From Actinomycetota bacterium (GTDB lineage Bacteria > Actinomycetota > Nitriliruptoria > Nitriliruptorales > Nitriliruptoraceae), in the NCBI GenBank assembly GCA_019347575.1, contig JAHWKY010000003.1, positions 1 to 64,000 of the forward strand: a stretch of DNA of 64,000 nucleotides, read 5' to 3'. Below are positions 478 through 19,642 of this stretch, in pieces. Both the position numbers and the translations under genes were made by a program. The notes under the pieces are model-generated. The model was not told where the DNA came from, ran no database searches, and was given only the letters and a program-made list of their open reading frames with translations. Position 1 is the stretch's first letter, and the number at the start of each line of letters is the position of its first letter.

Positions 478-548
478 CGCTCTCAAGTAGCCGCCAGGCG
501 GTGGAGCGCAGGAGTAGATCGCTCTCAAGTAGCGACAGCGGTAGAGCG
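478..548 (+). repeat. Two copies of the two-stem repeat before rplC
   Basis: Copy 1 at 478-508 and copy 2 at 520-548. Both have outer arms CGCTCT and (A/G)GAGCG, the strand CAAGTA, an inner stem and the strand GGT. The inner stem is GCC/GGC with loop GCCA in copy 1 and GC/GC with loop GACA in copy 2. The CGCTCT arms differ from the GTGCT arms of most other copies but still pair, which is the strongest local evidence that the structure matters. They fill the rpsJ-rplC gap. Confidence 0.85.
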
Positions 549-566
549 CAAGATGAAGGATGAGAC

Positions 567-1226
567 ATGGCCAGGAGAGGCATCCTCGGCACCAAGCTCG
601 GGATGACCCAGGTCTTCGATGACGAAGCCCGGGTCGTTCCGGTGACGGTGATCCAGGCCGGACCCTGCACGGTCACGCAGGTCAAGACCGTCGACACCGA
701 CGGCTACACGGCGATCCAGCTCGCCTACGGAGAGCGCAAGCGCGTGAACAAGCCGACCGCCGGTCACCTCGCGAAGGCCGGTGTCCAGACCGCCCTGAGC
801 CTCGCCGAGCTGCGACTGGACGAGGGTGACGAGCTACCCGAGCTCGGAGCGACGCTCGGGGTCGCCGAGGTGTTCAACGAGGGTGACATCGTCGACGTAA
901 CCGGCACCAGCAAGGGCAAGGGCTACGCAGGCGTGATGAAGCGGCACAACTTCCGCGGCATGGGCGACGGGCACGGCGTGAAGAAGAAGAACCGCCACCC
1001 TGGAGCCGTCGGCGCCTGCGCCACACCCGGCCGGACCTTCAAGGGCCACCGCATGGCTGGCCGCGCGGGCCACGAACGCGTGACCATCCAGAACCTGCAG
1101 ATCGCCGGCGTGGATGCCGAGCGCAACTTGCTGCTCATCAAGGGTGCGGTTCCCGGCCCCAACGGGTCAGTCGTGTTCGTCCGCTCCGCGATCCGCACGA
1201 TCAAGGCGAAGGGTGGTGACGCCTGA
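567..1226 (+). CDS. rplC: Ribosomal protein L3 (uL3)
   Basis: 219 residues, normal for L3. Starts [19 protein letters not shown] and carries the signature region with [14 protein letters not shown] and [14 protein letters not shown]3 is a primary 23S rRNA binder that reaches the peptidyl-transferase centre and starts 50S assembly. ATG at 567 lies 18 bp after the second hairpin repeat. The TGA overlaps the rplD ATG at 1226, so translation of the two is probably coupled. Confidence 0.97.
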
Positions 1227-1972
1227 TGCCGAGCGTCGATATCAAGAACCTCCAGGGCGAGTCCATCGGGACCGCCGAACTGCCATCCGAGTGGTTCGAG
1301 GGCGAGGTCAACGTCCACGTCATGCACGAGGTCGTGACCGCACAGCTCGCCGCGGCTCGTCAGGGGACGCACAAGACCAAGACCCGTTCCCAGGTGCGTG
1401 GTGGCGGCCGCAAGCCGTGGCGCCAGAAGGGGACCGGACGGGCGCGTCACGGCTCGATCCGCAGTCCCCAGTGGGTCGGCGGCGGACACGCCAACGCGCG
1501 GACACCGCGGGACTACCGCAAGCGAGTCAACAAGAAGGTGCGCCGTGCTGCGCTGCGGTCCGCGCTGATCGACCGCGTCAACAACGGCGCGTTCGTGGTG
1601 ATCCGTGAGTTCGCCTTCGCCGCCCCGAAGACCAAGGACGCGGTCGCGGCACTGACCGCTCTCGACGCGGCCGATCGCAAGGTGCTGGTCGTGCTCGGCG
1701 ATCTGCACCAGCCGACGCTCCGGTCGTTCCGCAACCTGCAGCACGTGCACCTGATCACCGTCGATCAGCTCAACACCTACGACGTGCTGTGGAGCGACGT
1801 GGTCCTGTTCGACGAGACGGCGCTCGAGCTCATCGGGACCGGCAAGCGCACGGGCAACGTCGGTGAGATCGTCCCCACCGCGGCGCCCGCGGCGGAGGCG
1901 CCGACGACCGAGGCGCCCGCGGCGGAGGAGCCGACGACCGAGGCCCCGGACGACACGGGTGAGGAGGAGTAG
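1226..1972 (+). CDS. rplD: Ribosomal protein L4 (uL4) with acidic C-terminal tail
   Basis: The L4 core covers residues 1 to about 210, including the loop [19 protein letters not shown] and the block [11 protein letters not shown]. The last 36 or so residues are a low-complexity tail rich in Ala, Pro, Thr and Glu with a repeated APTTEAP unit, visible at DNA level as a near-direct repeat around 1880-1945. E. coli L4 is 201 residues, so 248 is long. L4 lines the peptide exit tunnel and in some bacteria represses the S10 operon; no leader target for that was identified here. Start overlaps the rplC stop. Confidence 0.96.
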
Positions 1973-1974
1973 CC

Positions 1975-2265
1975 GTGAAGGACCCGCGCGATGTCATCTT
2001 CCGCCCCGTCGTCTCCGAGAAGACGTACGGGCTGCTCGACAACAACAAGTACACCTTCGAGGTCGACCCCCGCGCCAACAAGACCGAGATCAAGATCGCT
2101 GTCGAGAGGATCTTCGGGGTCAAGGTCCTCAACGTGAACACGATGAACCGCCGCGGCAAGCGCAAGCGTCGCGGGTGGGTGGTCGGCCAGCGCAAGGATG
2201 TCAAGCGGGCGATCGTGCAACTCGCCCCGGGTGACGAGATCGAGATCTTCGGCGCTGGGCTGTGA
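1975..2265 (+). CDS. rplW: Ribosomal protein L23 (uL23)
   Basis: 96 residues with the L23 pattern: [20 protein letters not shown] at the start, [17 protein letters not shown], and the basic loop [16 protein letters not shown]23 sits at the exit tunnel and docks trigger factor and SRP. GTG start at 1975 follows a GAGGAGGAG ribosome-binding stretch that lies in the end of rplD. The stop is directly followed by a four-copy hairpin array. Confidence 0.96.
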
Positions 2266-2384
2266 GTGCTCGAGCAGCGAAGCGGTAGCACAGTGAGTGC
2301 TCAAGTAGCGAAGCGGTAGCACAGGTAGTGCTCAAGTAGCGAAGCGGTAGCACAGGTAGTGCTCAAGTAGCGAAGCGGTAGCAC
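2266..2384 (+). repeat. Tandem array of four two-stem repeats before rplB
   Basis: Copies at 2266-2291, 2297-2322, 2328-2353 and 2359-2384, with an exact 31-bp period. Each has outer arms GTGCT/AGCAC, inner GC/GC with loop GAA, and 3' strand GGT. The first copy has CGAGCA in place of CAAGTA. Linkers are only 5 bp. The exact period indicates tandem duplication of element plus linker. The array fills the whole rplW-rplB gap apart from 21 bp that hold the rplB ribosome-binding site (GGGAGGAGG). Confidence 0.9.
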
Positions 2385-2405
2385 AGGTGTAGGGAGGAGG
2401 CGACG

Positions 2406-3242
2406 ATGGGTATCCGCAAGTACAAGCCGACGACCGCGGCCCGCCGTGGCGCGTCCGTCAGCGACTTCGAGTCGGTCACCAAGGGCCGCCCCGAGAAGTC
2501 GCTGGTCGGACCGTTGCCGCGCAAGTCCGGTCGCAACACGCACGGCCGCATCACGTCGCGTCACCGCGGCGGGGGCCACAAGCGCAAGTACCGCGTCATC
2601 GACTTCCGTCGCAACAAGGACGGCGTGCCCGCGACCGTCGCCGCGGTCGAGTACGACCCCAACCGGTCCGCGCGGATCGCCCTGCTGCACTACCACGACG
2701 GCGAGAAGCGCTACATCCTCGCGCCCAAGAACGTCGCGGTCGGCAGCAAGCTCGAATCCGGCCCCGAAGCCGACATCATCCCCGGCAACGCCCTGCCGCT
2801 CATGAACATCCCCGTCGGAACCACGGTGCACGCCGTCGAGCTGCGTCCCGGAGGGGGCGCCAAGATGGGGCGCAGCGCCGGGGCGTCGATCCAGCTCCTC
2901 GCGAAGGAAGGCAAGACGGCCGCGCTGCGACTCCCCTCGGGCGAGATCCGACTCGTGGACTCTCGCTGCCGGGCGACGGTCGGCTCGGTGGGTAACGAGG
3001 AGCACGAGCTCATCAAGCTGGGCAAGGCCGGCCGCAAGCGGTGGAAGGGCGTGCGGCCACAGACCCGTGGCGTCGCCATGAACCCCGTCGACCACCCCCT
3101 CGGTGGTGGTGAGGGCAAGAGCTCCGGCGGCCGCCACCCGGTCGACAAGCACGGCAACCCCGAACGACGGACGCGCAAGCCCAAGAAGGCGTCCGACAAG
3201 ATGATCATCCGCCGCCGTGGTCGCGGCAGGAGGCGCCGCTGA
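2406..3242 (+). CDS. rplB: Ribosomal protein L2 (uL2)
   Basis: 278 residues, typical of L2. Begins [20 protein letters not shown] and contains the motif [19 protein letters not shown] and the C-terminal block [20 protein letters not shown] with the conserved His near the peptidyl-transferase centre. L2 is needed for subunit association. ATG at 2406 follows GGGAGGAGGCGACG. The TGA overlaps the rpsS ATG. Confidence 0.97.
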
Positions 3243-18617: not shown

Positions 18618-18643
18618 GTGCTCAAGCAGCGAAGCGGTAGCAC
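18618..18643 (+). repeat. Two-stem repeat before rplM
   Basis: Arms GTGCT/AGCAC, strand CAAGCA, inner GC/GC with loop GAA, 3' strand GGT. Ends 19 bp before the rplM ATG. If the candidate promoter at 18495-18524 is used, this element is in the rplM leader RNA. Confidence 0.85.
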
Positions 18644-18662
18644 AACACTAGGAACCGGCAGC

Positions 18663-19088
18663 ATGCGCACCTTCTCCCCGCGCCCGCAGGACATCGAGCG
18701 CGAGTGGTTCGTCGTCGACGCCGAGGGCCAGACCCTCGGGCGTCTTGCGAGCCGCGTCGCCCAGGTGCTGCGCGGCAAGCACAAGCCGATCTTCGCTCCC
18801 CACGTCGACGTCGGTGACCACGTCATCGTCGTGAACGCTGCCAGGGTGGCGGTCTCGGGCAACAAGCTCGAGGACAAGAAGTACCACCGCCACTCCGGCT
18901 ACCCGGGCGGGCTCACCTCCGTCCCGTTCCTCCGCCTCCTGGAGGAGTCGCCGGAGAAGGTCATCGAGCGGGCCGTCCGCGGGATGCTGCCCAAGAACCG
19001 GCTCGGCCGGCAGATGATCAACAAGCTCAAGGTCTACGCGGGCCCCGAGCACCCCCACCAGGCTCAGCAGCCCAAGCAGCTGCCGTAG
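18663..19088 (+). CDS. rplM: Ribosomal protein L13 (uL13)
   Basis: 141 residues from ATG 18663 ([20 protein letters not shown]). Family blocks are [53 protein letters not shown] and [16 protein letters not shown]. An early 50S assembly protein. Ribosome-binding site ACTAGGAACC. The stop TAG falls in the first base of a repeat. Confidence 0.96.
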
Positions 19089-19156
19089 TCCTCAAGCAGC
19101 CCGAAGGGCGGTAGGACAACATGAAGGTCCTCAAGCAGCCCGAAGGGCGGTAGGAC
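19088..19156 (+). repeat. Two two-stem repeats between rplM and rpsI
   Basis: Copies at 19088-19117 and 19127-19156, 39-bp period. Arms GTCCT/AGGAC, strand CAAGCA, inner stem GCCC/GGGC with loop GAA, 3' strand GGT. The outer pair C-G at the third position replaces G-C of the GTGCT copies, a compensatory change. The array starts on the last base of rplM and ends 15 bp before rpsI. Confidence 0.88.
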
Positions 19157-19171
19157 GGAACAGAGGCAACC

Positions 19172-19558
19172 ATGGCAGACAACATCTACGTCGGCCGCCG
19201 CAAGACGGCGGTCGCCCGCGCGCGGATCCGTCGGGGCAGTGGTCAGTTCCTCCTGAACGGGCGTCCGCTCGAGGACTACTTCCGGGTCGAGAAGCACCGC
19301 TTCCAGGTGACCGAGCCGTTCGCCGCCGTCGAGCAGGACGGACGGTGGGACGTCATCGCTCGCATCAACGGCGGTGGCATCACCGGCCAGGCCGGGGCGC
19401 TGCGGCTCGCGATCGCCCGTGCGCTCGTCGGTGAGGATCCCGAGCTGCGCGGTCCGCTCAAGGCCGCCGGTCTGCTGACGCGTGATGCGCGCAAGGTCGA
19501 GCGCAAGAAGTACGGCCTCAAGAAGGCGCGCAAGGCTCCGCAGTACAGCAAGCGGTGA
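19172..19558 (+). CDS. rpsI: Ribosomal protein S9 (uS9)
   Basis: 128 residues. [34 protein letters not shown] and the C-terminal [20 protein letters not shown] with terminal SKR, whose tail reaches the P site. Ribosome-binding site ACAGAGGCAACC. Cotranscribed with rplM. Confidence 0.97.
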
Positions 19559-19573
19559 CCTCGGCAACCGGCC

Positions 19574-19642
19574 GTCCTCAAGTAGCCCGGAGGGCGGTAG
19601 GACAACAGGGCCGTCCTCAAGTAGCCCGGAGGGCGGTAGGAC
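19574..19642 (+). repeat. Two two-stem repeats between rpsI and glmM
   Basis: Copies at 19574-19603 and 19613-19642, 39-bp period. Arms GTCCT/AGGAC, strand CAAGTA, inner GCCC/GGGC with loop GGA, 3' strand GGT. These are the last copies on this strand; beyond here only one degenerate copy (32708-32733) was found. Confidence 0.88.

Follow-up and report, generated by a model that had tools for sequence, protein, structure and literature searches.

The first 20 kb of a 64,000-nt stretch from a Nitriliruptoraceae bacterium (Actinomycetota; assembly GCA_019347575.1, contig JAHWKY010000003.1, positions 1 to 64,000), here called the window, carry a ribosomal protein (r-protein) gene block in which a short two-stem repeat recurs, mostly in the gaps between genes. 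The locus raises the question whether this repeat is a structured RNA element that coordinates r-protein expression or a DNA repeat resembling the repetitive extragenic palindromic (REP) sequences, two options that the initial annotation had left side by side. Because the same hairpin is found in protein genes and rRNA genes of unrelated bacteria and in phages, we favor a tiny mobile element over an r-protein switch. The repeat probably represents a family of mobile palindromic DNA elements that are very short and non-coding, comparable to the Rickettsia palindromic elements (RPEs) and to REPs, and the family is apparently previously undescribed. No matching paper was found with the exact motif and peptide strings; literature coverage was partial and an earlier description is possible. 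No Rfam family reached its gathering score over the window, and a relaxed E-value over positions 1-20000 gave nothing relevant, only chance-level matches.

The unit is a hairpin of 26-30 nt with a 5-bp outer stem of variable sequence, an invariant internal loop formed by the strands CAAGYA and GGT, an inner stem of 2-4 bp, and a loop of GNA or GNNA type, followed by a short 3' tail. The two-stem architecture described at the outset is thus retained in a refined form, with an outer stem of 5 bp in most copies and a loop that is mostly GNA and sometimes GNNA. In a structural scan of the window's genome, 85 of 99 loops were GNA triloops and tetraloops formed a minority; one related family often has GNCA tetraloops. 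The inner arms change together, as had been noted, giving the variants GC/GC, GCC/GGC, GCCC/GGGC, GGCC/GGCC and GCGC/GCGC in a scan that itself required inner pairing. Likewise, the pyrimidine that was said always to occupy the fifth base of the internal loop was demanded by the search motif.

To avoid circularity, the set for covariation analysis was chosen solely by the core TCAAGYAGCGNAGCGGTAG, with identical copies removed and related copies otherwise unweighted. Among its 137 cellular and 110 viral copies, the outer pairs 3, 4 and 5 were formed in 92-100% of cases, against 46-79% expected from column composition, and their mutual information of 0.34-1.27 bits lay above the shuffle maximum of 0.16. 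At these positions the outer stem covaries strongly. Since pairs 6-8 were near chance level, the outer stem is taken to be 5 bp long. The covariation spans element copies and subfamilies, not orthologous sites. Among the copies of the window's own genome with that core (n = 49) the outer stem is nearly invariant, so the arm changes first noticed there reflect a few subfamilies. Predicted folding energies are ordinary for RNA and DNA alike (sense-strand RNA z about -0.8 to -1.4); thermodynamic stability was therefore dropped as structural evidence, leaving covariation as the basis of the structural claim. Unusual stability in DNA is known for GNA triloops and GNNA tetraloops, the stable RNA class being GNRA, and the loop type hints at a single-stranded DNA form of the hairpin.

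The repeat is not confined to the r-protein block. The pattern TCAAGYAGN{5,14}CGGTAG matches 182 times in the 4.9-Mb genome, against three matches for the reversed pattern, and 182 is a lower bound on the number of copies; the statement that all but one copy lie in the first 20 kb holds for the window and is misleading for the genome. Genomic copies are grouped in clusters of 1-5, head to tail, with a period of about 31-39 nt. A structural scan of 2.42 Mb of fetched loci gave 424 matches and a reversed-motif control two, a difference that measures specificity and not density, because the repeat was the basis on which these loci were chosen.

Placement in the r-protein block is not conserved either. 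Twelve other genomes were read across the block; most carry the repeat, and several have contigs that end early. An rpmJ query was given no weight. In 11 of the 12 the block holds no copy, and in the twelfth (G127) there is one array of three at rpmD-rplO (L340), where the window has no copies, so that the expectation of copies before the same r-protein genes in relatives failed. Array-holding window gaps such as rplW-rplB, rplM-rpsI and rpsI-glmM exceed the lengths measured in relatives, and several copy-holding gaps are longer than in most relatives. Because placement is not common to relatives, a conserved r-protein regulatory system is strongly disfavored, and this comparison of sequences does not support a conserved role in coordinating r-protein expression. 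Copies throughout the genome and non-conserved placement favor the REP-like option instead.

Outside this genome the repeat is widespread and patchy. Matches were found in at least 119 stretches of genome contigs and in 117 stretches of viral contigs. Those listed for genomes belong mostly to Erythrobacteraceae, Caulobacterales, Rhodobacterales and other Alphaproteobacteria, and also to Euzebyaceae and Nitriliruptorales. Within the window's class the repeat is abundant in some families and absent in others, and none of 34 genomes of the same family has more than one pattern match. Elsewhere in the phylum nearly all matches are chance-like. The clear exception, a genome of another family (G087), has only two copies, both in its r-protein operon (L349:6180-6215 and L349:13556-13593); they lie in the rpoA-rplQ and rplR-rpsE gaps, which also hold arrays in the window. 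In a further carrier (G319), four of ten copies lie in an apparent rplKAJL-rpoB operon (L351:4272-6033), one in sense orientation before rplJ and three antisense between rplL and rpoB. In Rhodobacterales, rRNA operons contain copies before 16S, between 16S and tRNA-Ile, and before and after 23S, and the element also lies inside a variable helix of 23S; the listed rRNA cases are all sense. Because this 23S site of Rhodobacterales lies within the variable helix, its empty counterpart could not be delimited exactly. Copies in one variable region of 23S were seen in seven loci (L029, L030, L033, L038, L083, L095 and L026), and several rRNA operons have extra copies in leaders and trailers. No large-subunit rRNA gene was found in the assembly of the window's genome.

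Copies also lie inside protein genes. Of 60 intragenic clusters, 54 are sense and 6 antisense, most of them read in the frame that encodes SSSEAVG and more rarely in the LKQRSG frame. In-frame copies with SSSEAVG add about 11-14 residues to the host protein. The hosts are real conserved enzymes and include PheS, CysS, the GlyRS beta subunit, a class I W/Y tRNA synthetase, MnmG/GidA, UvrB, phage terminase, the ribonucleotide reductase large subunit, a glycerol-kinase-like FGGY kinase, MetH, proline dehydrogenase and an Mfd-like protein with CarD/TRCF RID and UvrB interaction domains (the names GlpK, Mfd and MetH were assigned from domains). Between filled and empty phage terminases, at 91-95% protein identity, the difference amounts to 11-14 residues; in the closest pair, at 95% identity, it is a gain of 11 residues. 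Homologues of CysS, GlpK and an M28 peptidase show the same difference at lower identity. DNA alignment of empty and filled sites gives an insert of about 33-42 nt that includes an A-rich 3' tail. In Alphaproteobacteria, whose genomes here are mostly GC-rich, A makes up 45-72% of the 9 nt that follow the outer stem, and the tail ends abruptly, with background composition again from position 10.

A phage terminase large-subunit family has the insert near the N-terminus in many members (e.g., L025, L169, L262, L263, L173, L177, L212, L224, L243 and L249), and close relatives lack it (L171, L182, L190 and L193). PheS of four Erythrobacteraceae (L031, L063, L104 and L127) has the SSSEAVG insert at an identical site, and because the site is identical in all four the insert was apparently inherited and tolerated in this essential enzyme.

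In the window's genome the repeats are found preferentially in gaps upstream of genes and in sense orientation; the genes concerned tend to have high codon adaptation, and the r-protein block is the most favored place. Placement was examined in 0.85 Mb of contiguous sequence, comprising all of contigs C1 and C6 and the greater part of C4 and of the window's contig, C3; these are the largest contigs plus the window's own, not a random sample, and genes were called with a simple codon-model caller checked on the r-protein operon. The 41 clusters found there lie in co-directional gaps (24 sense, 5 antisense; p = 0.0005 for the bias), in divergent gaps (8) and inside called genes (4), and convergent gaps are empty (p = 0.006). 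Of the 41, 12 fall in the window's first 20 kb, with about one expected (p ~1e-10). Outside the r-protein block, genes faced by a cluster exceed background in codon adaptation to the r-protein set (p = 0.005). Many copies end about 15-21 nt upstream of a start codon. A plain dispersed repeat, the outcome foreseen if copies were scattered at random, therefore describes the genome-wide spread and not the r-protein enrichment, the sense bias or the empty convergent gaps. A replication-strand cause of the sense bias could not be assigned here, as the GC skew of this genome is too flat to identify the leading strand.

In the evolutionary sense the element is mobile, as seen from its new sites, the corresponding empty sites, its patchy spread and its carriage by phages. 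Its units occupy intergenic gaps, in-frame gene sites and phage genes, often as head-to-tail arrays, in two phyla and in phages. As to mechanism, a trans-acting enzyme would recognize the folded single strand, which would explain why pairing and internal loop are kept while the stem sequence differs between subfamilies. With less confidence, the bias to sense orientation and high expression might arise if the element inserts into strands that transcription or lagging-strand replication exposes, or else from better tolerance or selection at such places. In its fullest form this account describes a hairpin of about 35-40 nt, moved by an enzyme that reads its folded single strand, which inserts preferentially in sense into highly transcribed DNA (r-protein operons, rRNA operons and phage genes) and has spread over two phyla and phages; we offer it tentatively, as having somewhat less than an even chance of being right as a whole.

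Several observations weigh against a mobile element of this kind. The flanks of the copies show no clean target-site duplication and no fixed length, only short direct repeats at some copies above the level in shuffles, with a weak excess at 4-8 nt downstream. No filled and empty insertion pair was caught within one species. Y1_Tnp (PF01797) is absent from the window's genome and from 15 of the 17 carriers searched, with positive controls in E. coli and Caulobacter, and RVT_1 is absent in 12 of 18 carriers, the window's genome among them. The leader-like placement in this genome also has to be counted here. Candidate mobilizers were rejected accordingly: a REP-associated tyrosine transposase (RAYT) carrying Y1_Tnp is missing from most carriers, and so is a reverse transcriptase, considered in view of the A-rich tail and the sense bias. 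A recurrent neighbor gene was rejected as well, the neighbor clusters resembling, as judged by eye, phage structural genes or common housekeeping families.

Leader-like placement, which is particular to the window's genome, can be joined with the evidence for mobility if a hairpin of selfish origin has been locally domesticated, being retained in the 5' leaders of this lineage's highly expressed genes, where it would aid mRNA stability or translation. Such domestication is compatible with, and additional to, the mobile-element explanation, and copies of other carriers at rplJ/rplL-rpoB, rbfA-infB or in r-protein operons fit it. We nevertheless consider it rather unlikely, as no benefit need be assumed if insertion is biased to transcribed, unconstrained gaps, which would yield this pattern too, and the same operons hold antisense arrays. 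Quite improbable is a cis-acting leader RNA, in which transcribed hairpins would bind a protein, or block or stabilize mRNA, and so coordinate r-protein and other highly expressed genes of the window's genome. It would account for the sense bias, the empty convergent gaps, the codon adaptation, the enrichment in the r-protein block, the distance to start codons and the position of both G087 copies. However, placement is not kept among carriers of the same class, four of the roughly 25 window copies are antisense, and RNA folding energies are ordinary. Moreover, alphaproteobacterial copies often lie in genes and in convergent gaps (17, versus 3 in divergent gaps), and because convergent gaps are common there, leader-like placement is not a general property of the family.

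Returning to the repeat as found in the window, copies were counted by script, and degenerate copies were added from direct reading of the sequence (Table 1). A core scan for TCAAGYA ... GGTA with outer pairing gave 21 copies and reading supplied the remainder, including degenerate copies at 2266, 10628, 13983 and 16833; the two approaches agree with the original count of about 25 in the first 20 kb, all sharing the two-stem architecture. The four minus-strand copies (starting at 14987, 16833, 16869 and 16905) lie within a plus-strand operon. Past position 19642 the rest of the window contains no intact copy.

Table 1. Positions of repeat copies and arrays in the window.
Position	Strand	Feature	Location
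479..507	+	repeat copy, inner GCC/GGC	before rplC
521..547	+	repeat copy	before rplC
2266..2291	+	repeat copy, TCGAGC replacing TCAAGC	before rplB
2297..2384	+	tandem array, 3 identical copies, 31-bp period	before rplB
9215..9340	+	tandem array, 4 copies, 33-bp period	before rpsE
10628..10657	+	degenerate copy, outer stem partly broken	before secY
13471..13496	+	repeat copy overlapping map end	
13673..13698	+	repeat copy	before infA
13946..14012	+	2 copies, inner GGCC/GGCC, second with shortened outer stem	before rpmJ
14987..15016	-	repeat copy antisense to operon	before rpsD
16833..16931	-	array antisense to operon; intact copies 16869-16895 and 16905-16931, degenerate copy ~16833-16859	between rpoA and rplQ
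17500..17524	+	repeat copy	within 3' part of rplQ reading frame
18618..18643	+	repeat copy	before rplM
19088..19156	+	2 copies, inner GCCC/GGGC	before rpsI
19574..19642	+	2 copies, inner GCCC/GGGC	before glmM

To our knowledge, short palindromic repeats are common in bacteria, the mover is not known for most of them, and a transposase has been proposed for GTAG REPs only. The sharp motif of the present element, its wide and patchy host range including phages, and its filled and empty sites make the movement of such repeats testable. The element also shows a route by which mobile DNA can add the same short peptide to unrelated essential enzymes. Furthermore, it advises caution, as strongly covarying hairpins ahead of ribosomal genes need not be regulators. 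In the window's genome the preference for highly expressed genes is unusual, and the element may have been partly domesticated there.

Among known systems, miniature inverted-repeat transposable elements invite comparison; here the excess of short direct repeats is weak (4-8 nt) and no transposase was found. The r-protein leader RNAs in Rfam are likewise hairpins ahead of r-protein genes, and covaried pairing is shared with them, but our element has no Rfam match at gathering score, its position before the same genes is not conserved in relatives, and it is not always sense (14987-15016 and 16833-16931 are antisense). REPs, as described by Di Nocera et al. (2013, PMC3733652), resemble it in size (20-40 bp), complementary stem variation and the presence of some intragenic copies, including copies in tRNA synthetase genes. 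That account gives GTAG REPs a terminal unpaired GTAG tag beside a 6-13 bp stem, CGTC REPs a terminal CGTC tag, an 8-9 bp stem beginning with AT and a CCA tail, and REP dimers a mostly head-to-head or tail-to-tail arrangement. Our element, in contrast, ends in its 5-bp variable stem of pattern [N3]CT/AG[N3] with no CCA tail, has two stems around a fixed CAAGYA/GGT loop, forms head-to-tail arrays in which neighbors of opposite orientation are rare (one, L084), and in the window's genome lies upstream, not downstream, of genes. Mobilization as a REP family by a RAYT (Y1 tyrosine transposase) is highly improbable and largely refuted: the palindromes are short, genome-wide and in some cases in frame, as described for REPs (PMC3733652), and GYAG and GTAG adjoin the inner stem on either side, but these are internal, neither GTAG nor CGTC is present as a terminal tag beside a 6-13 bp stem, head-to-tail arrays are a form rare in REPs, and Y1_Tnp is missing as detailed above. 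The TAACTGA repeats of Beggiatoaceae (MacGregor 2015, PMC4679880) are similarly patchy, with horizontal spread suggested, and many sets lie immediately ahead of start codons, with some preceding r-protein genes and some within ORFs (open reading frames); they differ in being 7-bp direct repeats of another sequence without the present hairpin. RPEs, as described in two accounts (PMC10969869, PMC3733652), are dispersed palindromes that lie in frame in essential protein genes and encode a recurrent peptide. By these descriptions they are set apart by a length of about 150 bp, compared with a unit of about 35-40 nt that occurs in two phyla and phages with a conserved internal-loop motif and head-to-tail arrays, and in-frame insertion inside conserved protein genes is a feature that our element shares with them.

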